In this document: in pieces, positions 8,069 to 21,279 of the stretch
Position numbering within the stretch: the first letter of the stretch is position 1
Layout of the letters: each line of letters starts with the position of its first letter
NCBI RefSeq assembly: GCF_002356355.1
Contig: NZ_AP018052.1
Location: forward strand, 2,666,001-2,730,000
Direction of reading: 5' to 3'
From: Thiohalobacter thiocyanaticus
GTDB lineage: Bacteria; Pseudomonadota; Gammaproteobacteria; Thiohalobacterales; Thiohalobacteraceae
Length of the DNA stretch: 64,000 nucleotides
Made by a program: the position numbers and the translations under genes
Notes under the pieces: generated by a model
Told to the model about the DNA's origin: nothing
Database searches by the model: none
What the model saw: the letters and a program-made list of their open reading frames with translations, nothing else

Positions 8069-8368
8069 CTATGCCGCATGGGGCGTAACTTCTTTGTCCA
8101 GCCGTTTGGCGAGCTCCGCTTCTGCACACAAAAGATCGTAACGCGACTGAAGATTGAGCCAAAACTGCGCCTCCATGCCAAAGTACCGACCGAGGCGCAA
8201 CGCCGTATCAGCTGTAATAGACCGCTTGCCTTGGGTAATTTCGCTTATACGGCGTTGCGCCACACTGATATCTTTTGCAAGGCGGTATTGAGATATACCC
8301 ATGGGCCGCAAGAATTCCTCAAGCAGAATTTCACCAGGATGAATGGGATCGAAATCTCTCTTAGCCAT
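8069..8368 (-). CDS. higA: HigA-type antitoxin
   Basis: 99 residues, an XRE helix-turn-helix protein of the HigA addiction-module family. It opens with DFDPIHPGEILLEEFLRPMGIS, then a HTH (QYRLAKDISVAQRRISEITQGKR) and the typical TADTALRLGRYFGMEAQFWLNLQ. It should bind and neutralise the HigB toxin encoded just upstream and repress the shared promoter. The ATG at 8368 has GAGGTG eight bases upstream; a GTG three codons earlier is an alternative. Order toxin then antitoxin is the hallmark of higBA. Toxin-antitoxin cassettes are thought to stabilise large integron arrays. Confidence 0.9.
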   Translation of the reverse strand: MAKRDFDPIHPGEILLEEFLRPMGISQYRLAKDISVAQRRISEITQGKRSITADTALRLGRYFGMEAQFWLNLQSRYDLLCAEAELAKRLDKEVTPHAA

Positions 8369-8698: not shown

Positions 8699-8723
8699 GC
8701 AACACTATTTTGGGTCTCGTGAG

Positions 8724-8789
8724 TTCTAACGCCTAGCTCAGCCGAGGAGGCGCGTCAGCGCCGATGTCGGATGGAGCGACGTGTTATGT
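8724..8789 (-). repeat. attC site of the 8831-9190 cassette
   Basis: 66 bp imperfect palindrome with cores TTCTAAC (8724-8730) and GTTATGT (8783-8789), and a central GGCGCGTCAGCGCC hairpin. Confidence 0.75.
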
Positions 8790-8830
8790 GTTACTTCGAT
8801 GCACAAGCTCACTTCGCACTCCTAGACCAG

Positions 8831-9190
8831 TTACATGCACTCTCTTTCTTTTGAAAATAAATTTGATGAGCTGCATTTCACTAACCAACGGCGGAGCCCG
8901 GTATTAAGATTCTGTTGCCACTGCACCAATTTTGACTCTACCTGTGCATCCGTTAATGGGAATTTGCTAGGCGCACTACCTACCCAGAATTGAACCTGAC
9001 ATATTGCTTTACCAGCACAAGCATTACCTACCGCAAGGCGATAGACATCTTCATTGTCTTTTTGTGTGGCATCTACAGCCACGAAATGCATGATCCCTGA
9101 CTTCCCTGTGATCTTGTAATCATCGCTCGCAGTCGCAATAATAGGCAGCCAAACGACAAAAAATAAGAATAAATTAGTAATACTCTTCAT
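8831..9190 (-). CDS. secreted cassette protein of unknown function
   Basis: 119 residues with a Sec signal peptide (MKSITNLFLFFVVWLPIIATA). The mature part has three or four cysteines (ACAGKAICQ, KCSSS, ERECM) that could form disulfides in the periplasm. No known family was recognised. The region AICQVQFWVGSAPSKFPLTDAQ is the most structured-looking part. It is the only gene in its cassette. Low GC and cassette context suggest horizontal acquisition. Confidence 0.6.
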   Translation of the reverse strand: MKSITNLFLFFVVWLPIIATASDDYKITGKSGIMHFVAVDATQKDNEDVYRLAVGNACAGKAICQVQFWVGSAPSKFPLTDAQVESKLVQWQQNLNTGLRRWLVKCSSSNLFSKERECM

Positions 9191-9276
9191 TTCTCAAACC
9201 TCTCTCTTGTTGTTACACATAACGATAAAGCTGTGCGGCGCAAACGAAGTGATCTAGCACCACTTTAGTGGACACA

Positions 9277-10131
9277 TTAAGCGCCGAGTTTTTCATATTT
9301 CTCTGGTGATTGATAGCCAAGTGATGAGTGCAATCTTTCACGGTTATAAAATTCGATATATTCCACGACGTAAGCCACAGCTTCGATTTCATTCTCGAAG
9401 GTGCGCTGGTGAATGAGCTCTGCTTTCATGGAATGAAAGAAAGATTCCATCGCGGCGTTATCCAACGGATTACCTTTACGACTCATGCTGCGATTGAAGC
9501 CTGACTCCGTCAGCATATCTCGGAACTCATGCGCGGCATATTCTATCCCCTGATCAGAGTGGAACAGACAGCCCGATTTTGGTTGGTTTCTCAACAACGC
9601 CATTCGTAACGCGCTTTTCGTGAGCTCGGTATTACGCTTCTTGCTGAATGACCAGCCGACAACCTTGCGGGTAAACAGATCGAGCACCACGGCATGATAG
9701 AGCCAGCCTGAGCGTGTGCGCAGATAGGTGAAGTCACCGACCCATTGCTCACCAGCCCGCATTGGTGCTTCCATCTTCGCGAGCTGATTACCGGTTGAGG
9801 AATAAAATTCATGTTGCCCTGGCCGCCAGACATACAGTCCTGTTGTCGCCGCCTTGATGTCCATTTCTCGCATGAGTCGATTAACGCGCCTACGGCTACA
9901 GCTATAGCCTCTCCGGCGCAGTTCCTGATGCATTCGGGCCGCACCATAGCAACGACGAAGGCCCTGGTGTAGCTCCTTGATTAGCTTCATCAGCTGCTTG
10001 TCGTATTGACGATGCTCGCTTATAGGGCGTTCGCGCCAGGCATAGAAACCACTACGTGAAACGCCCAATAACCGACAGAGTGTTGAGACTTTATGAAAAT
10101 CGCGATTCTTCTCAATGAAGGTAAATTTCAC
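9277..10131 (-). CDS. IS3-family transposase OrfB (DDE catalytic subunit)
   Basis: 284 residues: an N-terminal HTH_21-like region (RSGFYAWRERP) and an integrase core with the DDE triad Asp133 (VGDFTYL), Asp193 (HSDQGIEY) and Glu229 (NAAMESFFHSMKAELI). It is normally made as an OrfAB fusion by -1 frameshifting. The frame is open upstream of the ATG back to the slippery A-run at 10161-10167, which supports this. It overlaps orfA by four bases. It catalyses cut-and-copy transposition of the element. Confidence 0.9.
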   Translation of the reverse strand: MKFTFIEKNRDFHKVSTLCRLLGVSRSGFYAWRERPISEHRQYDKQLMKLIKELHQGLRRCYGAARMHQELRRRGYSCSRRRVNRLMREMDIKAATTGLYVWRPGQHEFYSSTGNQLAKMEAPMRAGEQWVGDFTYLRTRSGWLYHAVVLDLFTRKVVGWSFSKKRNTELTKSALRMALLRNQPKSGCLFHSDQGIEYAAHEFRDMLTESGFNRSMSRKGNPLDNAAMESFFHSMKAELIHQRTFENEIEAVAYVVEYIEFYNRERLHSSLGYQSPEKYEKLGA

Positions 10132-10499
10132 TTCTTTGCTTTCGAGAAGAACCGCTTGGCTTTTTTTAGGATATCCAGCTCCTCCTGATTTGCAGCCAGT
10201 GACTTTTCTAGTTCCTTGATCCGTTTCTGCGCCTTGACGAGTTCCGCCTCTGCCTCAAGGTTGGCCCCTGGTTCCCGCGCAGGCTTGGTTTTCGTTGTCG
10301 ATTTCTTTTTCACTGAATATCCACTCCGCAAGGTACCGTTCTTTTTCTCCAGGCGCCAACGATACAACATGACGGGGTGTATCCCCAGCGATTCGGCAAC
10401 GGCAATGGCAGTGATATCGGGGTGGTCTGCCAGCTGAATCGCTCGCAGCTTGTATTCCAGTGTATAGCGGTCGTACTTCTTCTTGATGACTTTTCCCAT
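10128..10499 (-). CDS. IS3-family OrfA (DNA-binding helix-turn-helix)
   Basis: 123 residues. An N-terminal helix-turn-helix (AIQLADHPDITAIAVAESL) recognises the inverted repeats. A C-terminal leucine-zipper-like coiled coil (KAQKRIKELEKSLAANQEELDILKK) mediates multimer formation. Near the end, CTA AAA AAA GCC at 10159-10170 is a slippery sequence. A -1 shift there continues into OrfB through SQAVLLESKEVKFTFIEKN. Confidence 0.88.
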   Translation of the reverse strand: MGKVIKKKYDRYTLEYKLRAIQLADHPDITAIAVAESLGIHPVMLYRWRLEKKNGTLRSGYSVKKKSTTKTKPAREPGANLEAEAELVKAQKRIKELEKSLAANQEELDILKKAKRFFSKAKK

Positions 10500-10607
10500 T
10501 TGACCCTCTTCAGTAGTACAGTGGTAAACTGTCTACCAAAGTGGTGCTAGATCAAAGCGCAGTGTAGTTTGCGTGATATTCCCCCGATAAAATGGACACC
10601 CGGTTTG

Positions 10608-11417
10608 TCACGCTGTTTTTTGTTCATACTCTATCGGCGACAGGTAGCCCAAACCCGAGTGCAACCTCACCGCATTGTAAAACCGATTGATGTATCGGGA
10701 CAGGGATCTGCGCAATGTGCTTGTCCGTCTATATACCGAGCCACGAACAAGCTCCCCTTTGAGACTATGATAAAACGACTCCATGTGCGCGTTGTCCGTA
10801 CAGCGCCCCGGACGGTTGAAGCTCTGGCGAATGCCATGCTGTTTCATCAGATCTCGGAACTCATATCCGGTAAACTCAATTCCTCTGTCAGTATGTAGAA
10901 TGATGTTGCTTGGACGCCCTCGTTTCTTCAGCGCATATGCCAGGGCGGCTTGAGTGAGCTTTGTCGTGCGCGTGGCTGCCAGTGACCAGCCTATTATCCG
11001 TCGCGAATATCGATCCATGACGGTAGCAAGATAGCGCCATTGCTGATTGACTTTCAAATACGTCACATCCGCCACCCAGACCTGATTGATAGCCGTGGGC
11101 GCTTCCAGGCCTTTCAATAAATTCTCGCCTGCCGTCTTGAAGCGCATCAGTCCTGGCTGACGGCGCGTGACCAGCGTCACCCTGGCCCTCAAACCTGCCC
11201 TCGCATTAGCCTTTCTACCCGCTTCCGGCCCACCAATACCCCCTGTTGTCGCAGGGCTTGATGGACCCGGGGGCTCCCGTAGCGACCCTCGCTTCGCCAA
11301 TAGATGCGCGATATATGCTTCAGGAGCTGTTGATCTTCCTGGTGGCGCTGCGAGGCTTGCGTTTCTCCCAAGCATAAAGGCCACTGGTGGAGACGCCCAG
11401 CCAGTGGCATAGAAACC
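10608..11417 (-). pseudogene. IS3-family orfB, disrupted by frameshifts
   Basis: The catalytic part is readable at 10608-11190, with Asp (WVADVTYLK), Asp (LHTDRGIEF) and Glu (NAHMESFYHSLKGELV). The N-terminal part lies in two other frames. FLCHWLGVSTSGLYAWEKR (about 11365-11420) switches frame near 11345. RIYWRSEGRYGSPRVHQALR switches again near 11190, where one missing base turns RLMREAGL into RLMRGQV-stop. Two shifts in under 250 bp make a sequencing artefact less likely than decay. Confidence 0.8.
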
Positions 11418-11801
11418 TCACTCCGATTTCCCGGTATCTTTGGACGAATCCAAATCGTTCTGATGTTGTTCCGCCAGATACCGTTGCCACTTTTTTAGGA
11501 GATCGTTCTCCTTTCTCAGGCGCTCGTTATCCCGTTTTAGTCGATCAATCTCTGATAAATCCTGTAGATTAATCGTCGTTTTCTCTTTGTCCACTCGCAC
11601 GCGTTTCCGGCCATCCTCTTGTAGTTTTCCGTCGCGGTATTCCATTCGCCAGCGTGACAACATGAAAGGATGAATATCCAGCCCTTCAGCCACTTGCTTG
11701 ACTTGAATTCCTTCCTGGTAGCTAAGCCGTACCGCCTTAACTTTGAAATCGTTTGTATATTGCCAGGTCTTTCTGGGTTGCGTGTATCTTGCCATTTTCA
11801 C
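11418..11801 (-). CDS. IS3-family OrfA
   Basis: 127 residues. A helix-turn-helix (AVRLSYQEGIQVKQVAEGLD) is followed by a coiled coil (EIDRLKRDNERLRKENDLLKK). It has the standard OrfA architecture and differs clearly from the OrfA of the neighbouring element, so the two insertions are unrelated events. An A-run at CTAAAAAAGTGG is a likely -1 frameshift site into the damaged orfB. Confidence 0.85.
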   Translation of the reverse strand: MKMARYTQPRKTWQYTNDFKVKAVRLSYQEGIQVKQVAEGLDIHPFMLSRWRMEYRDGKLQEDGRKRVRVDKEKTTINLQDLSEIDRLKRDNERLRKENDLLKKWQRYLAEQHQNDLDSSKDTGKSE

Positions 11802-11867
11802 ACCTCCTGAGTTATCAGAAGGTGTCCACTAAAGCGGGGGAACTACAACGTCGGCTGGGGCGCTTGG

Positions 11868-12518
11868 TTAGGTGCTTTCTTTTTCATTATCGTCGCCATC
11901 CCTTTTTTGCACCGCATCTCTTGCACCTTCTGGCAGTTGAGAATATAACTCATCAATTTCTTTCGGCCGCGTAATGCGATCTTCGACGATAAAGTTAATC
12001 ATACTAAAAAGATTTTGTGCGATATCTGGAGTGTCATTCAGATCTATTTCACCAGGATGTACTGCGTTGTTGCCGACTACCCGGCAAAAGTCTAGTGCTT
12101 TCTGAACCTGAATTGGCAACCCGCTTGCCACCAAAGACTTTATATCATTGTTGATGTTTTCTCCGCTTTGCCCAAGTTCGGCCATTAATTTCTGAACAGC
12201 TAACCGCAATAGAGCAGCTGCAGCTCTAGGGGAACGACCAAAAACAGATCTAGCCTCTTCGTATTCAGCTTCACAGGACTCAGGTAAATCTGGGTGCGAA
12301 GGTGGGACTGGCGAATCAGATGGCACGATCATTCTTTGTTGGTACCAATAAGTATGTTCGCCACAATGACTACATACCGATGCCTCGAAATCGGTGCCAC
12401 GAGCATTACTATGCATATGGGTATAAAGACTGAACCAGGATTGGCGAGCGAAAACATTGCAATAAATACAATGAAACTGATTTTCCTGGTACGTTGGTGG
12501 ATAGTATTTATGCTGCAT
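11868..12518 (-). CDS. DUF4145 protein with N-terminal zinc-binding cysteines
   Basis: 216 residues. The N-terminus holds two CxxC pairs (CIYCNVF and CSHCGEH) that probably bind one zinc. The rest is a DUF4145 domain: PDLPESCEAEYEEARSVF, SPRAAAALLRLAVQKLMAELG and VVGNNAVHPGEIDL. DUF4145 is a helical domain often found in restriction-like or nucleic-acid-linked proteins, and some cassette versions are alone as here. The Asn-Asn-Ala-Val-His motif suggests a possible nucleotide-related (HEPN-like) active site. Its stop overlaps its attC core, which is split by two insertion sequences. Confidence 0.7.
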   Translation of the reverse strand: MQHKYYPPTYQENQFHCIYCNVFARQSWFSLYTHMHSNARGTDFEASVCSHCGEHTYWYQQRMIVPSDSPVPPSHPDLPESCEAEYEEARSVFGRSPRAAAALLRLAVQKLMAELGQSGENINNDIKSLVASGLPIQVQKALDFCRVVGNNAVHPGEIDLNDTPDIAQNLFSMINFIVEDRITRPKEIDELYSQLPEGARDAVQKRDGDDNEKEST

Positions 12519-12535
12519 CTGCTATTCCTATTGGC

Positions 12536-12607
12536 ACCTAACGATAAAGCTGTGCGGCGCAAACGAAGCGCAGTGTAGTTTGCGTCCGAACGAGCGCCTT
12601 GTTAGGC
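12536..12607 (-). repeat. attC site of the 12615-13352 cassette
   Basis: 72 bp with cores ACCTAAC (12536-12542) and GTTAGGC (12601-12607) and an inner GCGCAAACGAAGCGCAGTGT arm. It is the intact twin of the attC disrupted at 9217-11873. Confidence 0.85.
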
Positions 12608-12614
12608 GATTTTG

Positions 12615-13352
12615 TCACGGAAGAAGTAACCAAGTAACTTGATACACATGCCCGAGCAAGTATTGTACGCGCTCAATCGGTTTTGAGCGTTCCACAGCTT
12701 TAGTTATGGCTGCTTGAAAACGAGAGTCCCTCGTACGCATTACCAACTCTTGACTCAATGCTTCAATATAACCTTCGTCCAGCACATTCTGTTTCAATTC
12801 AGGTCTGTTATCTTCCCCTCCAGAGTACGACTTTTTAAATTTTCGGACTTCAGAGTGGAGTGTCGGATTTGTACCATTTGGTGCAAATGTTATGTTGTGA
12901 CGATCAGCATCATAAATATCACCAACATCAAGAGGATCAAGAAGGATTGCATTACCTGCAATACTATTTGCTCGGAAATGTGTTTCTAGCTCATGGCTTA
13001 GATGAAAGCGTGGCGCGCAGTAAAAAGCATTGCCTTTTGTTCTACTCAACTCACACAGCGTGTTGTGCTGTTCGTTATCTACCGGAAACCGAAAATAAGG
13101 GCCTCCGTGAGCATCATAAAAATGAGCATTTCTCCCGGCTTTCTTTTCGGCGAATGCAGCAACCTTATGTTGAAAAAACACCGACCGAGTATAGTGCCCA
13201 TGGTTCAACCTGAACTCAACATCGTAGCCTAAATCCTTCTCCATCTGCTGAGATGGAATATGTGGATGGCTTGCGAGCAAGGCAGCATTGACTTGGCAGT
13301 ATTCTGCGTTGAAGCAGAACTCAAAAGTCCTTTCACTGAATCCTGGGCTCAT
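12615..13352 (-). CDS. cassette protein of unknown function (245 aa)
   Basis: 245 residues, soluble, no signal peptide. It opens MSPGFSERTFEFCFNAEYC and contains GNAFYCAPRFHLSHELETHF followed by ILLDPLDVGDIYDADRHNITF. That layout recurs in a family of uncharacterised proteins I cannot name. The ATG at 13352 has AAGG eight bases upstream. A longer frame to 13499 would run through the preceding attC and was rejected. It is the largest single-gene protein cassette in the array after the transposase. Function unknown. Confidence 0.6.
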   Translation of the reverse strand: MSPGFSERTFEFCFNAEYCQVNAALLASHPHIPSQQMEKDLGYDVEFRLNHGHYTRSVFFQHKVAAFAEKKAGRNAHFYDAHGGPYFRFPVDNEQHNTLCELSRTKGNAFYCAPRFHLSHELETHFRANSIAGNAILLDPLDVGDIYDADRHNITFAPNGTNPTLHSEVRKFKKSYSGGEDNRPELKQNVLDEGYIEALSQELVMRTRDSRFQAAITKAVERSKPIERVQYLLGHVYQVTWLLLP

Positions 13353-13373
13353 CAATATTACCTTCGTTAAAGC

Positions 13374-13449
13374 GCCTAACGCTGGAGGTGAGGGGCCGAG
13401 GCGCCCGCGCCAGCGGGACCCGAGGTCCCTCTCGACCGACGTGTTAGGC
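13374..13449 (-). repeat. attC site of the 13456-13818 cassette
   Basis: 76 bp with cores GCCTAAC (13374-13380) and GTTAGGC (13443-13449), and strongly paired arms GGGGCCGAGGCGCC / GGGACCCGAGGTCCC in the centre. Confidence 0.88.
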
Positions 13450-13455
13450 CGCGGT

Positions 13456-13818
13456 TCATGTGCGGAACATGTTGTAGATGTGGATGGGGAAGCCAACAAA
13501 CCCTGTTACAATCCCAAGAACCACGATGTAGTAACCAACTGAAGCCGATAAGAACACTGCGACTAACCAGCCACAAAGTGCGACGACAAAACCAACGACT
13601 CCAATACGTAAACCGAGAAGCTTTCTAGGTGGTGTGGCTTTTTCAAACGATACAGTTGATTGCCGGAATAGCCCGGCAATGCCAACAGCAATAGCCGCAA
13701 TAACCGCCGCCCCGACCGAAAAGGCCCAAGGGTCCGCGGCTGAAACCTTGGCAAGCGACAGACCGAGAAGGGCTGCAACGCTGACAATGGCAAGGCTTTG
13801 AAATAGGCGAGCGTTCAT
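13456..13818 (-). CDS. small integral membrane cassette protein
   Basis: 120 residues with four hydrophobic helices (about 8-26, 33-50, 72-91, 95-113) and short loops. No family was recognised. Two helices are rich in Ala, Val and Gly, as in small cassette membrane proteins. It occupies a cassette alone. Function unknown. Confidence 0.6.
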   Translation of the reverse strand: MNARLFQSLAIVSVAALLGLSLAKVSAADPWAFSVGAAVIAAIAVGIAGLFRQSTVSFEKATPPRKLLGLRIGVVGFVVALCGWLVAVFLSASVGYYIVVLGIVTGFVGFPIHIYNMFRT

Positions 13819-13822
13819 ATCG

Positions 13823-13885
13823 GCCTAACGGTTGAAGCCAGCCGCGCCTGCGAAGCAGGCGTCGGCCTGGGCTGAATTGTTAGGC
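13823..13885 (-). repeat. attC site of the 13902-14243 cassette
   Basis: 63 bp with cores GCCTAAC (13823-13829) and GTTAGGC (13879-13885) and a CGCCTGCGAAGCAGGCG hairpin between the arms. Confidence 0.9.
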
Positions 13886-13901
13886 CCGCTACCACGTATT
13901 C

Positions 13902-14243
13902 TCAGTATGCTCTGTAACACCCCTCCCCCTCGGAACTGGCATTAACGACCCTCATTTCCTTCGACTCAAACTCCAGAAATACCGTGCAAGATTCTCTGTC
14001 TATTCCATACTGTGCCCAGTAGTTTTCATAAACGTACAGGGTGTTTCCGTTGGCCAGGGTCCTTACTTGAGTTGGCTCTCTTTCACCCACGAATGCTCGT
14101 CCTGGATGATGCTTTAAATCTTTGAGTGTCCGACCAATGGTGTTTTCCAGACTTTCAGAGAAAGCGGCCTGCATTTTATGCATCGGTAGTGAGCACGCGG
14201 ATACCATTAGTAATGTAAAAAAATAGAACCTGATATATTTCAT
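13902..14243 (-). CDS. putative lipoprotein (cassette)
   Basis: 113 residues. The signal peptide ends in a lipobox (MVSAC at residues 13-17), so the mature protein is probably lipid-anchored to a membrane facing the periplasm. The mature part has LANGNTLYVYENYWAQYGIDRE and two further cysteines. Text such as GRTLKDLKHHPG resembles small outer-membrane lipoproteins that check 'slope-type' folds, but no family can be named. It resembles the cassette protein at 15701-16114 in layout: lipobox, short conserved 'YVY/YVW' strand and C-terminal cysteine. Confidence 0.6.
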   Translation of the reverse strand: MKYIRFYFFTLLMVSACSLPMHKMQAAFSESLENTIGRTLKDLKHHPGRAFVGEREPTQVRTLANGNTLYVYENYWAQYGIDRESCTVFLEFESKEMRVVNASSEGEGCYRAY

Positions 14244-14246
14244 TGG

Positions 14247-14324
14247 GCCTAACGCCTGAGTTAAGGGGCGACGTGCGAAGCACGACGTCCCAGCCCGAAG
14301 GGCGACTTGAACGAATTGTTATAT
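14247..14324 (-). repeat. attC site of the 14340-14618 cassette
   Basis: 78 bp with cores GCCTAAC (14247-14253) and GTTATAT (14318-14324) and an inner GACGTGCGAAGCACGACGTC hairpin. Confidence 0.85.
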
Positions 14325-14339
14325 GGCATATAGCACTTT

Positions 14340-14618
14340 CTACGTGTTTGCGTTTACGACAAGAACAACGAAGGCAACCATGCCTAGACCCAAAAATACA
14401 AATTTTGCTTTTGAATAAAACTGCCCACGTTTTGTTAATACCGAATACGGCGGCGACTTAACCGCGACACCAGGCCCGTATTTATCGTGGCTTTTACTCC
14501 AATGCTCAAATTCATGATCCGGAATATCAGTTCGAATTTCTTTCCTTTCCCAGGCAGCAAAGCAAAGACCTACCCCAATAAATAGAAATGAAAATAAGAG
14601 AAGAACAATGCTCAACAT
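14340..14618 (-). CDS. small two-helix membrane cassette protein
   Basis: 92 residues with a membrane segment at each end (about 3-22 and 70-90) and a polar middle (IPDHEFEHWSKSHDKYGPG). The topology suggests a hairpin with the polar part on one side of the membrane. No family was recognised. Function unknown. Confidence 0.6.
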   Translation of the reverse strand: MLSIVLLLFSFLFIGVGLCFAAWERKEIRTDIPDHEFEHWSKSHDKYGPGVAVKSPPYSVLTKRGQFYSKAKFVFLGLGMVAFVVLVVNANT

Positions 14619-14630
14619 TTAATCACTGAC

Positions 14631-14706
14631 ATATAACGTTTAAGCTAAGGGGCCGCAGGAAACCGCGAAGCGGTTTTGCGGTCCCGTCTTAAGCGCCTTG
14701 TTATGC
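14631..14706 (-). repeat. attC site of the 14701-15012 cassette
   Basis: 76 bp with cores ATATAAC (14631-14637) and GTTATGC (14700-14706) and a long central hairpin AAACCGCGAAGCGGTTT. The gene's stop codon lies within the outer core. Confidence 0.85.
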
Positions 14707-15012
14707 GTCTTCATCAAGGTGCCAACCTACAATATCCCCAACATCATCATATACATTGTATATGACCTCGCAATCACATCCGCCACCATGTTCGATGAGC
14801 CAGGGAACAACCAGCTCTGGATTGAGATTATTAGCTTCAAGGAATTCAATTGATTCCTTAAGTGTATGATCACATTCGGGAGCATCTTCCCGGTTTAGAA
14901 AGCTCAAAAGACTTTTTAACTCTTCGATGCCCATTGGGATGGACGCACGGATAGCATCCTGCTCGTTTTGCTTATACTGCGCCTTCAGTTTCTTTTTCTT
15001 TTCTTTATCCAT
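14701..15012 (-). CDS. DUF2695 family protein
   Basis: 103 residues. A charged N-terminus (MDKEKKKKLKAQYKQNEQDA) leads into the DUF2695 core, with PECDHTLKESIEFLEANNL and the diagnostic EHGGGCDCEVIYNVYDD. The conserved Cys, His and acidic residues suggest a metal site, but the function of the family is unknown. Its stop codon (14701-14703) sits inside its attC. Confidence 0.75.
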   Translation of the reverse strand: MDKEKKKKLKAQYKQNEQDAIRASIPMGIEELKSLLSFLNREDAPECDHTLKESIEFLEANNLNPELVVPWLIEHGGGCDCEVIYNVYDDVGDIVGWHLDEDA

Positions 15013-15022
15013 TTTTACTTAC

Positions 15023-15081
15023 GCATAACGCAGAGTTTACCGGCGCGACGAAGGAGCGTCCGGTAGAGCGCCTTGTTGTGT
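15023..15081 (-). repeat. attC site of the 15037-15600 cassette
   Basis: 59 bp with cores GCATAAC (15023-15029) and GTTGTGT (15075-15081) and arms TACCGGCGC / GCGTCCGGTA. The upstream gene reads about 15 codons into it. Confidence 0.8.
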
Positions 15082-15600
15082 GTTGGCTCCCATCTGTAAT
15101 AGATCTATAAAATCTGAACCAGCAGCACTCTTGATGGGGAATTCGTTATTTTGAAGCTCCCGAACAATCTCTGGAAGCCGGTGTATGGTTATTCCGTGCT
15201 CGGCAATAAGCGCTACTTCCTGCTCAGATTTGACGTTATTTATGACTAGCTCCGAGGACCACTCGCCTCTCCACAGAGTTTCCATAAGCGACCGCTTCTT
15301 GGCGGCATGGAACTTTCCCTCAACCCACTCGGCGACACCTTTAACAAGCTCCTCCGGCGAACGTGCTGCGCTATTCGCAGCCCGACCAGTCTTTCGTGCG
15401 GCTTTCGGCACCTTAGAGATGTAGCTGACTGGCCTCATTGAAGCCTGGACCTCAACATGGCGACAGACAGGGCTTTCGCTTGATCTGAACTTCACCGCAA
15501 CCAAATCAATTTCGTTAACACCAAGACGGATGCCACGGATAGTGAAGTAACCCTGCCTATTCAACCACTCTTCAACAATTTCTTCGGCCAAAAGGGCCAT
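15037..15600 (-). CDS. PD-(D/E)XK nuclease-like cassette protein
   Basis: 187 residues. The N-terminal half has an Asp followed at the right distance by Glu-x-Gln: GVNEIDLVAVKF then RHVEVQASMRP. That is the usual layout of a PD-(D/E)XK nuclease fold (E-x-D ... E-x-Q/K). An upstream Glu (AEEIVEEWLNRQGY) would complete the site. The domain suggests DNA cleavage or Holliday-type activity, but this is inference. The last 15 residues (about GANTQQGALPDAPSSRR) are encoded by the attC itself. No partner methylase is adjacent. Confidence 0.6.
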   Translation of the reverse strand: MALLAEEIVEEWLNRQGYFTIRGIRLGVNEIDLVAVKFRSSESPVCRHVEVQASMRPVSYISKVPKAARKTGRAANSAARSPEELVKGVAEWVEGKFHAAKKRSLMETLWRGEWSSELVINNVKSEQEVALIAEHGITIHRLPEIVRELQNNEFPIKSAAGSDFIDLLQMGANTQQGALPDAPSSRR

Positions 15601-15620
15601 AGCAGTACCTCGTTACGGAC

Positions 15621-15681
15621 ACACAACGGTTCGCCTCAAGCGCGCGGCGTAGCCGCGTCGCTTTGGAGGCGTTTGTTAGGG
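15621..15681 (-). repeat. attC site of the two-gene cassette 15701-16634
   Basis: 61 bp with cores ACACAAC (15621-15627) and GTTAGGG (15675-15681) and a GCGCGGCGTAGCCGCGTCGC hairpin. It serves two genes, as none lies between 16114 and 16137. Confidence 0.8.
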
Positions 15682-15700
15682 CGGCCTTTTCCATATGATG

Positions 15701-16114
15701 TCATTGAGTTATCAGCGGCTTCAAACGGTCCGAATACTTGAAGCAAGTGCCATTATTTCCCTCATATTCAATTCGTCTGACAATATCCTGCTCGGTCTGC
15801 ATTTTAATCGTACAGCTCAGTGGACCAGGATCAGGAATATAAGATGTTGATGTTGCATTAAAAGGCTGGTTTCCTGCGTTTCCAGTAGTTGTTGTGGTGA
15901 CAGCTGTGGGAAATGGATTTCTTTCCGATGTGGTCCACACATAAACTTTCTTTCCCGCGACGACATACTCATGATCCGGTATACCAAGATAGTCGATTGC
16001 AACATTGATATTTTTATCTTTTAGCTTTGGCAGCGCACGGTTAAATGTATCAAAGCTCATTGCGCAGGCAGTTAGCAGCAATGTCATTATTATGACTGCG
16101 TACAATGTTTTCAT
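15701..16114 (-). CDS. putative lipoprotein (cassette)
   Basis: 137 residues. A signal peptide with lipobox LLTAC (about residues 12-16) implies lipid anchoring. The mature part has LGIPDHEYVVAGKKVYVWTT, a Thr/Asn-rich stretch and two conserved-looking cysteines (LSCTIKM, GTCFKYS). No family was recognised. The ATG at 16114 was chosen; an extension to 16165 would run into the preceding gene. Layout resembles the lipoprotein at 13902-14243. Confidence 0.6.
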   Translation of the reverse strand: MKTLYAVIIMTLLLTACAMSFDTFNRALPKLKDKNINVAIDYLGIPDHEYVVAGKKVYVWTTSERNPFPTAVTTTTTGNAGNQPFNATSTSYIPDPGPLSCTIKMQTEQDIVRRIEYEGNNGTCFKYSDRLKPLITQ

Positions 16115-16136
16115 TAGCGGTTCTCCAGATCGTATA

Positions 16137-16634
16137 TTATGTATTAGCGCTCTCCACGCCATCAATCCAGTTCAGTACACCTTCACTAAATAGGCTGACT
16201 GACATTGACAGTTCCCATGACCGCTTTCCTTCCTGTTCGGCGCCTCGGAAAGTGGTAGTCGGTATCTTTACCCCGTTCTCCAAGTATCTGGACACAGAAT
16301 CAGCATGAATGATTTTGTCGCAAACATCTTTTATCGAGAAGTTGGTAAGGAGATCAGCGTTGTTTCGATATTTATAAAGAAACCCGCAATTAGAAACATA
16401 AGCCACTGTAGATGCGTGATCGACGCCTTGATAGAATTTGGTGCGGAGTCCAATCGCGAGGTTTAGCAGGCTGGCCGTAAACAATTCTTGATACGCAGCC
16501 TTTGTCTTTTCTAGCCCTCCATGGCATGTGCTATCGACAAACAGATGATAGGCGGCTAGATCTAAGGCATGACATTGGATTGCAAGCGTCCGCAATAGAT
16601 CATATGTAACCTTGTGCGTACCAAGTATCTCCAT
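16137..16634 (-). CDS. cassette protein of unknown function (165 aa)
   Basis: 165 residues, soluble, mainly helical. SWELSMSVSLFSEGVLNWIDG and LLNLAIGLRTKFYQGVDH are the most distinctive stretches. I do not recognise the family. It shares one cassette with the downstream lipoprotein gene: only 22 bp separate them and no attC lies between. Two-gene cassettes often carry linked functions, but no function can be assigned to either. Confidence 0.6.
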   Translation of the reverse strand: MEILGTHKVTYDLLRTLAIQCHALDLAAYHLFVDSTCHGGLEKTKAAYQELFTASLLNLAIGLRTKFYQGVDHASTVAYVSNCGFLYKYRNNADLLTNFSIKDVCDKIIHADSVSRYLENGVKIPTTTFRGAEQEGKRSWELSMSVSLFSEGVLNWIDGVESANT

Positions 16635-16641
16635 GTTTTCG

Positions 16642-16717
16642 CCCTAACGCACTGCATCACCGGTGAAAAACCGAAGCGAAGCGAAGGATTTTTATCCGGT
16701 GCATGGCATTGTTAGCC
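16642..16717 (-). repeat. attC site of the 16724-17029 cassette
   Basis: 76 bp with cores CCCTAAC (16642-16648) and GTTAGCC (16711-16717) and arms CACCGGTG-like / CACCGGAT around a run of GAAGC repeats. Confidence 0.8.
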
Positions 16718-16723
16718 GTATAA

Positions 16724-17029
16724 TCAAACCTCAATGTCATTGTCGACCACAACACTAACTTCACTAAACACATGAGGTAAATCATATTTTAGGCATTCCA
16801 GCGTTATCTCCGGACTCACAACCTCAAACTGAGGCGGAACCAATTCTGAATCCCCATTCTCGATGCTCCAGCAAAGCCACCGCACATACACCTCCTCCCC
16901 ATTCGAGGATTTCTCCCAGACAGGTTCACCTGACACACTAACATGCAAGGTACAGCCTGGACCTTCATGTTCAGCTATAGCCATAGAGATGCGCTTTAAC
17001 AAAGGGGAGTTATTAACGTTAAGTTTCAC
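16724..17029 (-). CDS. cassette protein of unknown function (101 aa)
   Basis: 101 residues, probably an alpha/beta fold: SNGEEVYVRWLCWSIENGDSE in the middle and a hydrophobic C-terminal strand (EVSVVVDNDIEV). No signal peptide, membrane segment or known family. It is the cassette just distal to the transposase cassettes, and its upstream boundary is the core GTTAGCC at 17048-17054. Confidence 0.55.
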   Translation of the reverse strand: MKLNVNNSPLLKRISMAIAEHEGPGCTLHVSVSGEPVWEKSSNGEEVYVRWLCWSIENGDSELVPPQFEVVSPEITLECLKYDLPHVFSEVSVVVDNDIEV

Positions 17030-17047
17030 TTAATTCTTTTACCTTAC

Positions 17048-17156
17048 GGCTAACGTTTTAGTTGAGCCGCCGCCCTCCGGCCAAAAATTTTTCATCCATC
17101 CCACTTGGCGGGGACCACCCAATGCCTGTACGGTCGGCTCGAACGCCTTGTTGCAC
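17048..17156 (-). repeat. attC site of the distal transposase cassette
   Basis: 109 bp. Cores are GTTGCAC/GTGCAAC (17150-17156) and GGCTAAC (17048-17054). The arms on the minus strand are AAGGCGTTCGAGCCG and CGGCTCAACTAAAACG, a very common attC pattern. The last 32 codons of the transposase gene lie inside it. Confidence 0.85.
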
Positions 17157-18390
17157 AAGCCCCACCTCGTGCGCGGCCGGCGAGGGACTCTTTATATAGG
17201 ATTTTTTGCGACGGGTGCTGCGATAGTGCAGTAGGGCCGCGCCGCAATCCGGACAAACCCGCGTTGCCTTGGGCGGAAGTATGACCTCCTCACCCCGAGG
17301 CCGTCCCAGCTGCTCGCGGACGCAATCGCGCTTGTCGCGCGCTCCGGGCACGTAGAGCCCATAGTAGCGCAGATTATGCTGGCCTTTCACGGGAACATGC
17401 CACAGCAGCCGTCGGATAAACTCCTCAGTCTTGAGCGTTATTGACTTGTCTTTCCCATCCCGATGATCGCGATAGCGAAAGCTCACCTGCTCGTCGTCAT
17501 AACGGATCAACCGCGCATCCTTGATCGGCCCGCCACGGAGGTAGCGGGACAGATAGTTGGTCACGCCGCTGCCGTGATCGTAGGGCCCCTGGATACATAC
17601 ATTCCACCCTTTACGTGCCACCCGGGCAAGCACACGCCGCCAGTCACGGTCCTGCCAATGTCTCGGCAGTCTCAGGTCTCCCTTAGCATAGGCCACGTTC
17701 AACCAATTCAGCCATTTCCCCCGGAACTTGGCTTTGAGTACGCCAACGGGTAGCAAAAAGGGCTTCTTCAGTTCGCGCCAGTCCTCACCCGACACGCCGC
17801 CTCCTGTCACCAGCATGTGGACATGCGGATGAAACGACGCTGTCCGCCCCCACGTGTGCAGCGCGGCCAGGATCCCCACCTCAGCGCCGAGGTAACGCTC
17901 ATCGCGTAGCAGCTCCCGTAGCGTTTCCGCCGCTGCCTTGAATAAATGATCGGCGCTCCATTGGCGATTGTATTGCCAAAGCTCATTCAACTCATGCGGC
18001 AATGTGAATACCACATGGTAGTGCGTGCACGGCAGCAGCCTTGCACGCGTCTTGTCCAGCCATTGCTGATTGTAGGCATGCTGACACCGTGGGCAGCTGC
18101 GATGACGGCAGGCATGGGCCTGTTGCTCAATATGCCCGTCCCGTTCACACAGCCATTCCTCATAACCCAATTCATTCTCACAGCATTGCATTATTGCCAT
18201 GGCTGCGTGATGTTGGTCGACACTCACTCCATGCTTATCCCGGTAGCACGCATAACTCTGTGCCAGGATGTTCTTCAGGGTCGCCTCCATGCGATCCTCC
18301 TCCGTGTTTTTTTTATGTGCTATTATCTTGTAATCGCTCGCCAATGTACGTTAGCGATCACTTCTCTTAACCTTCCTTTTATTTGTGCAA
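17054..18390 (-). mobile_element. gene cassette carrying an IS91-type transposase (distal copy)
   Basis: 1337 bp, identical to the copy at 18391-19727. It starts TTGCACAAATAAAAGG on the minus strand and ends with an attC. Its boundaries fall exactly at the G/TT recombination point of the cassette cores, so it is a cassette rather than a plain insertion sequence. Confidence 0.8.
17058..18290 (-). CDS. IS91-family HUH (Y2) transposase, distal copy
   Basis: 410 residues. An N-terminal zinc-binding region (CRHRSCPRCQ) precedes the HUH relaxase motif HPHVHMLVTGGG (His156, His158) and a Y2 tyrosine pair, Tyr246 and Tyr250 (TNYLSRYLRGG). These act as rolling-circle nucleophiles on single-stranded DNA. 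A second CxxC (CPDCGAALL) is near the C-terminus. The ATG at 18290 follows AGGAGGA; a frame to 18344 was rejected. The final residues after VGLVQQ are encoded by the attC site, so the natural C-terminus of the enzyme may end before that. The gene is identical to 18395-19627. Confidence 0.85.
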   Translation of the reverse strand: MEATLKNILAQSYACYRDKHGVSVDQHHAAMAIMQCCENELGYEEWLCERDGHIEQQAHACRHRSCPRCQHAYNQQWLDKTRARLLPCTHYHVVFTLPHELNELWQYNRQWSADHLFKAAAETLRELLRDERYLGAEVGILAALHTWGRTASFHPHVHMLVTGGGVSGEDWRELKKPFLLPVGVLKAKFRGKWLNWLNVAYAKGDLRLPRHWQDRDWRRVLARVARKGWNVCIQGPYDHGSGVTNYLSRYLRGGPIKDARLIRYDDEQVSFRYRDHRDGKDKSITLKTEEFIRRLLWHVPVKGQHNLRYYGLYVPGARDKRDCVREQLGRPRGEEVILPPKATRVCPDCGAALLHYRSTRRKKSYIKSPSPAAHEVGLVQQGVRADRTGIGWSPPSGMDEKFLAGGRRLN

Positions 18391-18493
18391 CGTTTTAGTT
18401 GAGCCGCCGCCCTCCGGCCAAAAATTTTTCATCCATCCCACTTGGCGGGGACCACCCAATGCCTGTACGGTCGGCTCGAACGCCTTGTTGCAC
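18385..18493 (-). repeat. attC site of the attI-proximal transposase cassette
   Basis: 109 bp, with perfectly complementary outer cores GTGCAAC (18385-18391) and GTTGCAC (18487-18493) and the same inner arms as the distal copy. It forms the exact junction between the two cassettes. Confidence 0.88.
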
Positions 18494-19727
18494 AAGCCCC
18501 ACCTCGTGCGCGGCCGGCGAGGGACTCTTTATATAGGATTTTTTGCGACGGGTGCTGCGATAGTGCAGTAGGGCCGCGCCGCAATCCGGACAAACCCGCG
18601 TTGCCTTGGGCGGAAGTATGACCTCCTCACCCCGAGGCCGTCCCAGCTGCTCGCGGACGCAATCGCGCTTGTCGCGCGCTCCGGGCACGTAGAGCCCATA
18701 GTAGCGCAGATTATGCTGGCCTTTCACGGGAACATGCCACAGCAGCCGTCGGATAAACTCCTCAGTCTTGAGCGTTATTGACTTGTCTTTCCCATCCCGA
18801 TGATCGCGATAGCGAAAGCTCACCTGCTCGTCGTCATAACGGATCAACCGCGCATCCTTGATCGGCCCGCCACGGAGGTAGCGGGACAGATAGTTGGTCA
18901 CGCCGCTGCCGTGATCGTAGGGCCCCTGGATACATACATTCCACCCTTTACGTGCCACCCGGGCAAGCACACGCCGCCAGTCACGGTCCTGCCAATGTCT
19001 CGGCAGTCTCAGGTCTCCCTTAGCATAGGCCACGTTCAACCAATTCAGCCATTTCCCCCGGAACTTGGCTTTGAGTACGCCAACGGGTAGCAAAAAGGGC
19101 TTCTTCAGTTCGCGCCAGTCCTCACCCGACACGCCGCCTCCTGTCACCAGCATGTGGACATGCGGATGAAACGACGCTGTCCGCCCCCACGTGTGCAGCG
19201 CGGCCAGGATCCCCACCTCAGCGCCGAGGTAACGCTCATCGCGTAGCAGCTCCCGTAGCGTTTCCGCCGCTGCCTTGAATAAATGATCGGCGCTCCATTG
19301 GCGATTGTATTGCCAAAGCTCATTCAACTCATGCGGCAATGTGAATACCACATGGTAGTGCGTGCACGGCAGCAGCCTTGCACGCGTCTTGTCCAGCCAT
19401 TGCTGATTGTAGGCATGCTGACACCGTGGGCAGCTGCGATGACGGCAGGCATGGGCCTGTTGCTCAATATGCCCGTCCCGTTCACACAGCCATTCCTCAT
19501 AACCCAATTCATTCTCACAGCATTGCATTATTGCCATGGCTGCGTGATGTTGGTCGACACTCACTCCATGCTTATCCCGGTAGCACGCATAACTCTGTGC
19601 CAGGATGTTCTTCAGGGTCGCCTCCATGCGATCCTCCTCCGTGTTTTTTTTATGTGCTATTATCTTGTAATCGCTCGCCAATGTACGTTAGCGATCACTT
19701 CTCTTAACCTTCCTTTTATTTGTGCAA
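18391..19727 (-). mobile_element. gene cassette carrying an IS91-type transposase (attI-proximal copy)
   Basis: 1337 bp direct repeat of 17054-18390, in the same orientation, in the first array position after attI. Identity over the full coding region points to a very recent duplication or two insertions of the same circle. Confidence 0.8.
18395..19627 (-). CDS. IS91-family HUH (Y2) transposase, proximal copy
   Basis: Same protein as 17058-18290. The leader of about 100 bp between the cassette start and the ATG contains an AT-rich stretch (ATGTGC-like, 19650-19680) but no clear promoter. Expression could come from the integron promoter in the attI region, as for other first-position cassettes. 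Whether IS91 ori and ter ends survive around the gene cannot be seen; the positions they should occupy hold cassette ends. Confidence 0.85.
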   Translation of the reverse strand: MEATLKNILAQSYACYRDKHGVSVDQHHAAMAIMQCCENELGYEEWLCERDGHIEQQAHACRHRSCPRCQHAYNQQWLDKTRARLLPCTHYHVVFTLPHELNELWQYNRQWSADHLFKAAAETLRELLRDERYLGAEVGILAALHTWGRTASFHPHVHMLVTGGGVSGEDWRELKKPFLLPVGVLKAKFRGKWLNWLNVAYAKGDLRLPRHWQDRDWRRVLARVARKGWNVCIQGPYDHGSGVTNYLSRYLRGGPIKDARLIRYDDEQVSFRYRDHRDGKDKSITLKTEEFIRRLLWHVPVKGQHNLRYYGLYVPGARDKRDCVREQLGRPRGEEVILPPKATRVCPDCGAALLHYRSTRRKKSYIKSPSPAAHEVGLVQQGVRADRTGIGWSPPSGMDEKFLAGGRRLN

Positions 19728-19866
19728 CAGTGTCTTAGACGGATTCTTTAGTATTGGTAATAGTGCGGAATCGGGATATTGTGCGAACAGCCGATTCGGC
19801 ATAGTATTTTTGTTGCCGGACTGGTTTATCCGGGCAGGATGCCCGACCTGAACAAGGAGTGTTCAT
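19722..19866. promoter_or_regulatory. attI recombination site and intI / cassette promoter region
   Basis: 145 bp between the first cassette and the integrase start. The core GTGCAAC (19722-19728; GTTGCAC on the minus strand) marks the recombination point with the first cassette. The intI Shine-Dalgarno AAGGAG is six bases before the ATG. The Pc promoter for the minus-strand cassettes should lie here or inside intI, but I cannot point to unambiguous boxes. No LexA-type CTGT-N8-ACAG site was found. Confidence 0.6.
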
Positions 19867-21279
19867 ATGTCCGAATCCCCTGGCGGCGGCGATCCCGCCG
19901 TAGTTCGTTTTTATGATAATTATCTGAAATGTCTGCATAATGCCGGCATCCCCCAGAAACAGCGGCGCTGGTTTGTCAAGCATATCGAAGGCTTTGTCGA
20001 GGCGCAACGCGGGCGCGGGATCAGAACCCTTTCAGCCGCAAACATCAGCCAGTACCTGGAAACGATAGGCCGCCGGAAACGGCTTACTGACTGGCAGTTT
20101 CGGCAGATCGTTCATGCTATCCGGATATTGTACTGCGGCCTTCTGGCTTCCCCGTTGTGTCAGGAAATTGACTGGCAATACTGGATCGATGCATCCCAGC
20201 ATCTCGGCAGCGATCATCCCTCACAGGCAAGGCAGCTGACGCCAGAGGAGCTAGGCCATCTCAAGGAACGCTCCGGCAGCGGGCCGCTCAACCATGTCAG
20301 GGCCAGTCACCGCGATCTGCTGGTCCGTTTCACCACCGAGATCCGTGCCCGCGGTCTCGCCTACCGCACCGAACAGAGTTACGAGCAGTGGCTCTGCCGC
20401 TTCATCCTGTTCTGTAAGGGGGCATCACCCGAGTCGGTGGGCCCGCCCGAGGTCAGGGCGTTTCTGGATCATCTCGCCGTCATCCGCCATGTCAGTGCCA
20501 GCACCCAGAACCAGGCCCTCAATGCCCTGGTTTTTCTCTACAAGCAGGTCCTTGGACGTGATCCCGGCGATCTTGATAGCTTTGTCCGCGCCCGGCGGCC
20601 GAGGAATCTGCCGGTGGTACTCAGCCGGGACGAGGTCACTGTCCTGTTGTCACATCTTACAGGCACTGCACATCTTATCGCCTCCCTGCTGTACGGAACC
20701 GGTATGCGCCTGCTGGAGGGGCTGAGACTCAGGGTCCAGGATATCGATTTCGCCAATGGGCGCATCCATGTCCACCGCGGCAAGGGCAACAAGGACCGCT
20801 ACGTCCCGCTGCCGATCAGCCTTCAGGACTCACTGAAGGAGCAGATCAGAACGGTGGAACGGCTGCATCGCGATGATTTCGCGGCCGGGCACGGAGAGGT
20901 CAGGCTGCCCGATGCCCTGGCACGCAAATACCGCAACGCCGGGCGGGAGTTGAAATGGCAGTACCTGTTCCCGTCCACTCGCCTGGCGGCAGACCCTTAC
21001 GGCGGCACGATCCGTCGTCATCACCTGCACGAGAGCGCGCTGCAGAAAGCGGTAAAACGGGCTGCGGCGGTATCCGGGCTGAACAAGCGGGTGGGCTGCC
21101 ATACCCTGCGGCACAGCTTCGCCACGCATTTACTGGAGGCCGGACACGACATCCGCACGGTGCAGGAACTGTTGGGGCATGCCAACGTCTCCACCACCAT
21201 GGTCTACACGCATGTGATGAACCGGCCCGGGGTGGGCGTGTGCAGTCCGCTGGATATCGGTCGGGGCGGGGTTACTTGA
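19867..21279 (+). CDS. intI: integron integrase with N-terminal extension
   Basis: 470 residues, tyrosine recombinase. Catalytic residues: Arg281 ([10 protein letters not shown]), His412 and Arg415 ([11 protein letters not shown]), His438 (LLGHANV) and Tyr447 (TTMVYTHV). The stretch from about 345 to 400 ([19 protein letters not shown] and [12 protein letters not shown]) is the extra helix insertion found only in integron integrases, so this is not a phage integrase. Numbering is offset by about 135 residues from classical IntI1. The N-terminal 1-135 form an additional SAM-like DNA-binding segment ([20 protein letters not shown]). It should recombine attI with folded attC single strands. Its stop overlaps sspB convergently by 8 bp. 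Confidence 0.92.

Follow-up and report, generated by a model that had tools for sequence, protein, structure and literature searches.

Integron gene cassettes carrying a solo IS91-type HUH transposase: a tandem pair in Thiohalobacter thiocyanaticus and its relatives

The window analysed here, 64,000 nucleotides of the Thiohalobacter thiocyanaticus genome (NZ_AP018052.1, positions 2,666,001 to 2,730,000), contains two units of 1337 bp each that are 100% identical and lie in direct tandem on the minus strand. Copy 1 (18391-19727) occupies the first position and adjoins attI, and copy 2 (17054-18390) follows it. Each unit holds a single gene, encoding a 410-aa HUH/Y2 transposase of the IS91 family, at 18395-19627 in copy 1, with an ATG start, and at 17058-18290 in copy 2, both on the minus strand. 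The protein scores 357 bits against NF033538 (cut-off 125) and contains the Y2_Tnp (1.4e-55) and Zn_Tnp_IS91 (4.4e-24) domains, with the HPHVH (HUH) and YLSRY (Y2) motifs intact; the Zn-binding domain, the HUH motif and YxxxY, the combination that characterizes the IS91 family, are all present. The original prediction of two identical tandem units of 1337 bp, each with an IS91-type HUH transposase, thus holds down to the coordinates.

The unit is bordered on either side by the G/TT point of R'. Its attC spans 109 nt and consists of R'' GTGCAAC, a 5-nt spacer and L'' GTT(C)GAGCC, in which one base is extrahelical, and, in the other half, L' GGCTCAAC followed by a 6-nt spacer. The unit's own R', GTTGCAC, is located at its opposite (5') end and is complementary to its own R''. 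In the tandem, the attC of copy 1 (18385-18493, minus strand) comprises R'' GTGCAAC, the extrahelical C in L'' and R' GTTGCAC, and in the attC of copy 2 (17048-17156, minus strand), R' is GTTAGCC, which is supplied by the next cassette. The 5' end of the unit, GTTGCACAAATAAAAGGAAGG (19708-19728, minus strand), is near-identical in 10 of the 15 lineages described below. At the score obtained in the window, the attC scanner has a false-match rate of about 1 per 30 kb per strand; as a positive control, it recovered all three other cassette attCs of the class 1 integron In722. The attCs of adjoining cassettes are intact, and the unit comes with an attC belonging to itself, so that no pre-existing attC is interrupted.

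The surroundings are those of an integron. The attI region (19728-19800, minus strand; extent approximate) contains the motif CACTATTACCAATA and is followed by the gene for the integron integrase IntI (19867-21279, plus strand; 470 aa; TIGR02249, 445 bits). This integrase has about 145 extra N-terminal residues without a Pfam match, and a similar N-terminal extension is found in the integrase of a Bathyaustriella symbiont (L034:4569-5600). The two units head an array, in cassette orientation and directly after attI, with at least seven further recognisable attCs. By the attC scan, the rest of the array spans 8700-17053 on the minus strand, with attCs at 16642-16717, 15621-15681, 14631-14706, 13823-13885, 13374-13449, 12536-12607 and 8724-8789. 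Within it, at 9217-12607, a transposase-bearing insertion appears to split a cassette attC, with two nearly matching attC starts (ACATAACGATAAAGCTGTGCGGCGCAAACGAAG and ACCTAACGATAAAGCTGTGCGG) found on the plus strand at 9217 and 12536. A 66-nt stretch at 8195-8260 has palindromic ends (GCGCAACGCCGTAT...ATACGGCGTTGCGC) and an attC-like match on both strands. LexA-type boxes are no more frequent in the window than expected by chance.

The structural features by which a gene cassette is recognised are found here: G/TT borders, a full attC 3' of the gene, a matching R', and a place in an array by attI and intI. We conclude with high confidence that the 1337-bp unit is a true integron cassette. The predicted position next to attI is confirmed, as are the G/TT borders and the 109-nt attC with complementary GTGCAAC/GTTGCAC cores.

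The genome is assembled as one contig of 3.23 Mb, in which a third identical unit is located at G000:C1:11497-12833; assuming a circular chromosome, the distance is about 560 kb. This copy directly follows an attI-like site (L021:12834-12900, G000:C1) and has cassettes behind it; no integrase gene was found in the 20 kb examined at this second site. The motif CACTATTACCAATA is common, or nearly so, to the attI of the window, the second attI-like site and a Thiodiazotropha attI. Perfect identity and tandem arrangement are also what an assembler would produce by duplicating a single cassette at 17054-19727. Such an artefact is very unlikely, given that the third copy has unique flanks and that repeated insertion at attI is expected to yield tandem identical cassettes. 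The occurrence of an identical copy at an attI-like site implies that the unit has moved recently, each landing place being attI or attI-like; the positions and structures of the copies are observed, and from them we infer the movement to attI sites.

Solo transposase cassettes of this kind were found in 15 lineages, the window included. They occur in G090 (69% identity), on a Thiolapillus brandeum plasmid (63%), in Thiocystis violacea, in four Ca. Thiodiazotropha genomes and in two other gammaproteobacterial MAGs; more distant members, at about 40% identity or less, come from G172, G211, G359 and G046 and include ISKpn22. All units of the clade begin with GTTGNAC, and none in the 15 lineages contains a tyrosine recombinase gene. 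A recognisable attC terminates the unit in 13 of the 15 lineages (the one in G211 was read by eye); the two exceptions are the RUGA copy, which is truncated, and the Bathyaustriella copy, which is interrupted by the end of its contig. The extrahelical base and spacers of 5-6 nt are present in the attCs of the window unit and its relatives.

At 10 of the 16 loci, the cassette is preceded by an attI-like region with no recognisable attC, and an integrase lies beside this region in the window, in Ca. Thiodiazotropha endolucinida, where the cassette likewise comes first, beside attI/intI, in T. violacea, and in the Bathyaustriella and Epidulcina symbionts. Most of the remaining loci have the cassette inside an array, for example, mid-array in G090 and between attCs on the Thiolapillus plasmid. 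At three solo loci (L033, L037 and L038), no integrase was found within the DNA examined there. These three loci and L039 carry frameshifted or truncated clade members, the usual decay of mobile elements, so that not all copies are active. No clade members were found in viral contigs, the best match in the phage collection being only 32% identical. A match of the viral contig L040 to the 5'-end pattern was dismissed as chance, since no transposase is present there.

Wherever the context could be judged, the solo clade occurs only in integron settings. Full IS91 ends at these borders without an attC, named in the original prediction as evidence against a cassette, were not seen in the clade. 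The prediction had also proposed that an IS91 element was captured as a cassette, or that a transposon acquired cassette ends. The cassette ends at attI are genuine. The unit is, however, no recently captured free IS91 element; it belongs to a clade in which every member is solo and, as far as the ends are readable, cassette-bounded.

The structural coupling of the two unit ends was assessed by joining the own R' of each unit to its attC in an alignment of nine lineages, trimmed by hand to the stems. In this alignment, 99.3% of the cells are paired and 6 pairs have changed on both sides; the covariation score was reached by none of 500 shuffles. Changes at the variable position of GTTGNAC, at the 5' end, are matched by changes in R'', located more than 1 kb away. 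The two ends thus appear to co-vary as one attC across nine lineages, which, the alignment having been trimmed by hand, supports rather than proves the structure.

In a phylogenetic tree of 14 solo cassette transposases, from which the frameshifted copy of Epidulcina was excluded, and 31 transposases from the two-gene elements described below, the solo clade occupies one side of a branch with support 100/100, so that the tree has one change of state. With an IS91/IS1294 outgroup, the solo clade is supported at 89/94 and its sister relationship to the two-gene clade at 100/98; this rooting does not separate loss of a tyrosine recombinase in the solo clade from its gain in the sister clade. The HxHxH and YxxxY motifs are intact in all 14 clade transposases. 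Between clade members, dN of the enzyme core ranges from 0.11 to 0.29, and dS, at 1.2 or more, is close to saturation; dN/dS of the core, where computable, is about 0.055-0.09, with the same reservation about dS. Judging by these substitution rates, the transposase is under purifying selection, which keeps it functional. The part of the protein encoded inside the attC evolves differently, with dN/dS of about 0.2-1.5. The last 32 codons do overlap the attC, as predicted, but are not conserved as protein, and this tail is incidental read-through.

The sister elements carry an Xer/IntI-like tyrosine recombinase gene directly upstream of the HUH gene. In the multi-copy ones (G250 and G255), the left end consists of GTTGAACTAAACCGC together with a hairpin, and the right end forms a hairpin that abuts GTT, with N|GTT junctions. 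To say that IS91 elements lack a terminal attC is therefore too strong, since the sister ends are attC-like next to GTT; it stands to the extent that the sister right hairpins lack the extrahelical base and the regular spacers of a true attC. A candidate generalisation, that other IS91 genes lack attC-like ends, proved wrong in detail, because the left end of these elements lies 1 kb further upstream, behind the tyrosine recombinase gene. The two-gene elements thus resemble the solo clade as a sister group with a similar left end and a right-end hairpin beside GTT, and differ from it in encoding their own tyrosine recombinase, in lacking the extrahelical base, and in occurring also outside recognised integrons. 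In L047, L044 and L109, they have inserted with the right end at the GTT that forms the base of a palindromic hairpin (e.g., GTTAATCAGAACGCG...CTGATTAAC), a position that suggests structure-guided targeting. Besides the copy at L100:2900-6768, directly beside an integron integrase, G250 has two further two-gene copies elsewhere, one of them behind a terminator-like hairpin.

The basal cassette of G172 has a left end, GTTGAACAAATCCGC, plus hairpin, that resembles the sister left end. Given this similarity between sister elements and basal cassettes, the cassette ends look to be derived from, or shared with, IS91-type ends. The resemblance also invites the reading that the unit behaves as an IS91 element and owes its movement to the HUH enzyme it encodes, with an ori hairpin that mimics attC and with attI and attC sites merely offering GTT beside a hairpin. 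IS91-type HUH enzymes favour a GTT-containing target and IntI cuts at G/TT, so that junctions alone cannot separate the two movers; the right end of the window unit abuts GTT, which equally follows from the cassette rule, and, as a point against the cassette reading, direct tandem copies also fit rolling-circle read-through. Movement by the HUH enzyme would agree with the left end and GTT-abutting right hairpins of the sister elements, with the sister copy adjoining an integrase (L100), with sister insertions at hairpin bases outside recognised integrons (G255 and G188) and with the left hairpin kept in basal cassettes, e.g., GTTGAACAAATCCGCTATCGCGG in G172. We nevertheless consider this reading unlikely: the left hairpin is gone from the window unit, the extrahelical base and regular attC spacers are confined to the solo clade, and this clade keeps to integron settings where these could be judged, whereas the sister elements are found elsewhere as well.

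The evidence from sequence thus makes it very probable that the unit is a genuine cassette moved by IntI that carries a catalytically intact HUH transposase gene and belongs to an old, widespread clade of solo elements. Under the proposed mechanism, the 3' end of the unit would contribute R'' and its 5' end R', which together complete the attC; IntI of the host would excise the unit as a folded single strand and insert it at attI. Insertions of this kind would account for all three copies, of which one went into the integrase-linked attI, another in front of that copy and the remaining one into the orphan attI. The solo clade would depend on IntI as a tyrosine recombinase supplied in trans, in contrast to the sister group, which encodes its own. 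The transposase most likely still acts on its own hairpin-bounded, GTT-flanked ends, which would explain its retention. This would make the unit a selfish cassette that might move in either of two ways.

An extension of this explanation, and not one exclusive of it, is that IntI shuffles the unit and the HUH enzyme makes additional copies of it through nicks at these ends, raising the copy number. Purifying selection on the enzyme, the IS91-like left end retained by basal members and the three identical copies in one genome are consistent with such a dual mode. Weighing on the other side, the termini are only putative nicking sites, IntI alone can multiply cassettes when excision takes place from one strand, and the enzyme could be retained because it acts at other sites; on balance, we regard the extension as a serious possibility that is somewhat more doubtful than not. 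Less probable again, if still conceivable, is a lineage whose ends are used by IntI as attC and by the element's own HUH enzyme as ori/ter, which could copy itself between integrons and might hint at an origin of attC sites in the hairpin ends of tyrosine-recombinase/HUH elements.

Both HUH enzymes and attC sites operate on single-stranded DNA, a general property from which the original prediction inferred that a cassette-encoded transposase could help to spread neighbouring cassettes. The ISCR relatives are also held to move adjacent DNA (PMC12772301). Mobilisation of neighbours or of the whole array by the cassette transposase is, however, improbable, and this part of the prediction finds no support: the flanking cassettes differ at every locus examined, and no co-mobilised neighbours were seen.

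The cassette reading has implications beyond the window. All members of the clade are solo and, where the ends are readable, packaged as cassettes; their settings range from symbionts that oxidise sulfur to blaIMP-6 plasmids in hospitals, and a member, ISKpn22, already travels in hospital carbapenem-resistance plasmids. Two questions become testable, namely whether a cassette can encode its own mover and whether attC and the hairpin ends of the tyrosine-recombinase/IS91 elements have a common origin.

Isolated cases have been published, and one pattern may join three such notes, one of which, gcISKpn22, is placed in the clade here. In the open-access literature searched, no paper was found that joins the ISKpn22, ISShvi3 and ISCR28 cases into one family, and the clade, its shared ends and the sister relationship appear to be undescribed there. 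The unit named gcISKpn22 in INTEGRALL (PMC6262049) lies in In722 (class 1, blaIMP-6, IncN) exactly between aadA2 and the 3'-CS, and its 1460-bp stretch is shared, at an identity of 100% or close to it, by 13 complete E. coli genomes. Its solo HUH transposase (WP_032492616.1) belongs to the same clade, with 394 bits to the clade profile, and the unit has a GTTGAAC 5' end and a 3' attC with an extrahelical G; it differs in its length of 1462 bp, in its identity of only about 34-38% to other clade members, and in a GC hairpin at the 5' end in place of CAAATARAAGGAAG. ISShvi3, in the integron of Shewanella sp. Choline-02u, is mentioned in one sentence as a new cassette structure (PMC9229058) and is a candidate relative. 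Another candidate is ISCR28 of the sul4 modules, an IS91-like transposase with an attC at or right after its end (authors' data not shown), for which passive shuffling as a cassette was suggested; it differs in the oriIS and terIS reported by its authors (PMC12772301). IS1111-attC elements and group IIC-attC introns are likewise mobile elements associated with attC; these, however, interrupt an existing attC, whereas the window unit carries the attC as its own part.
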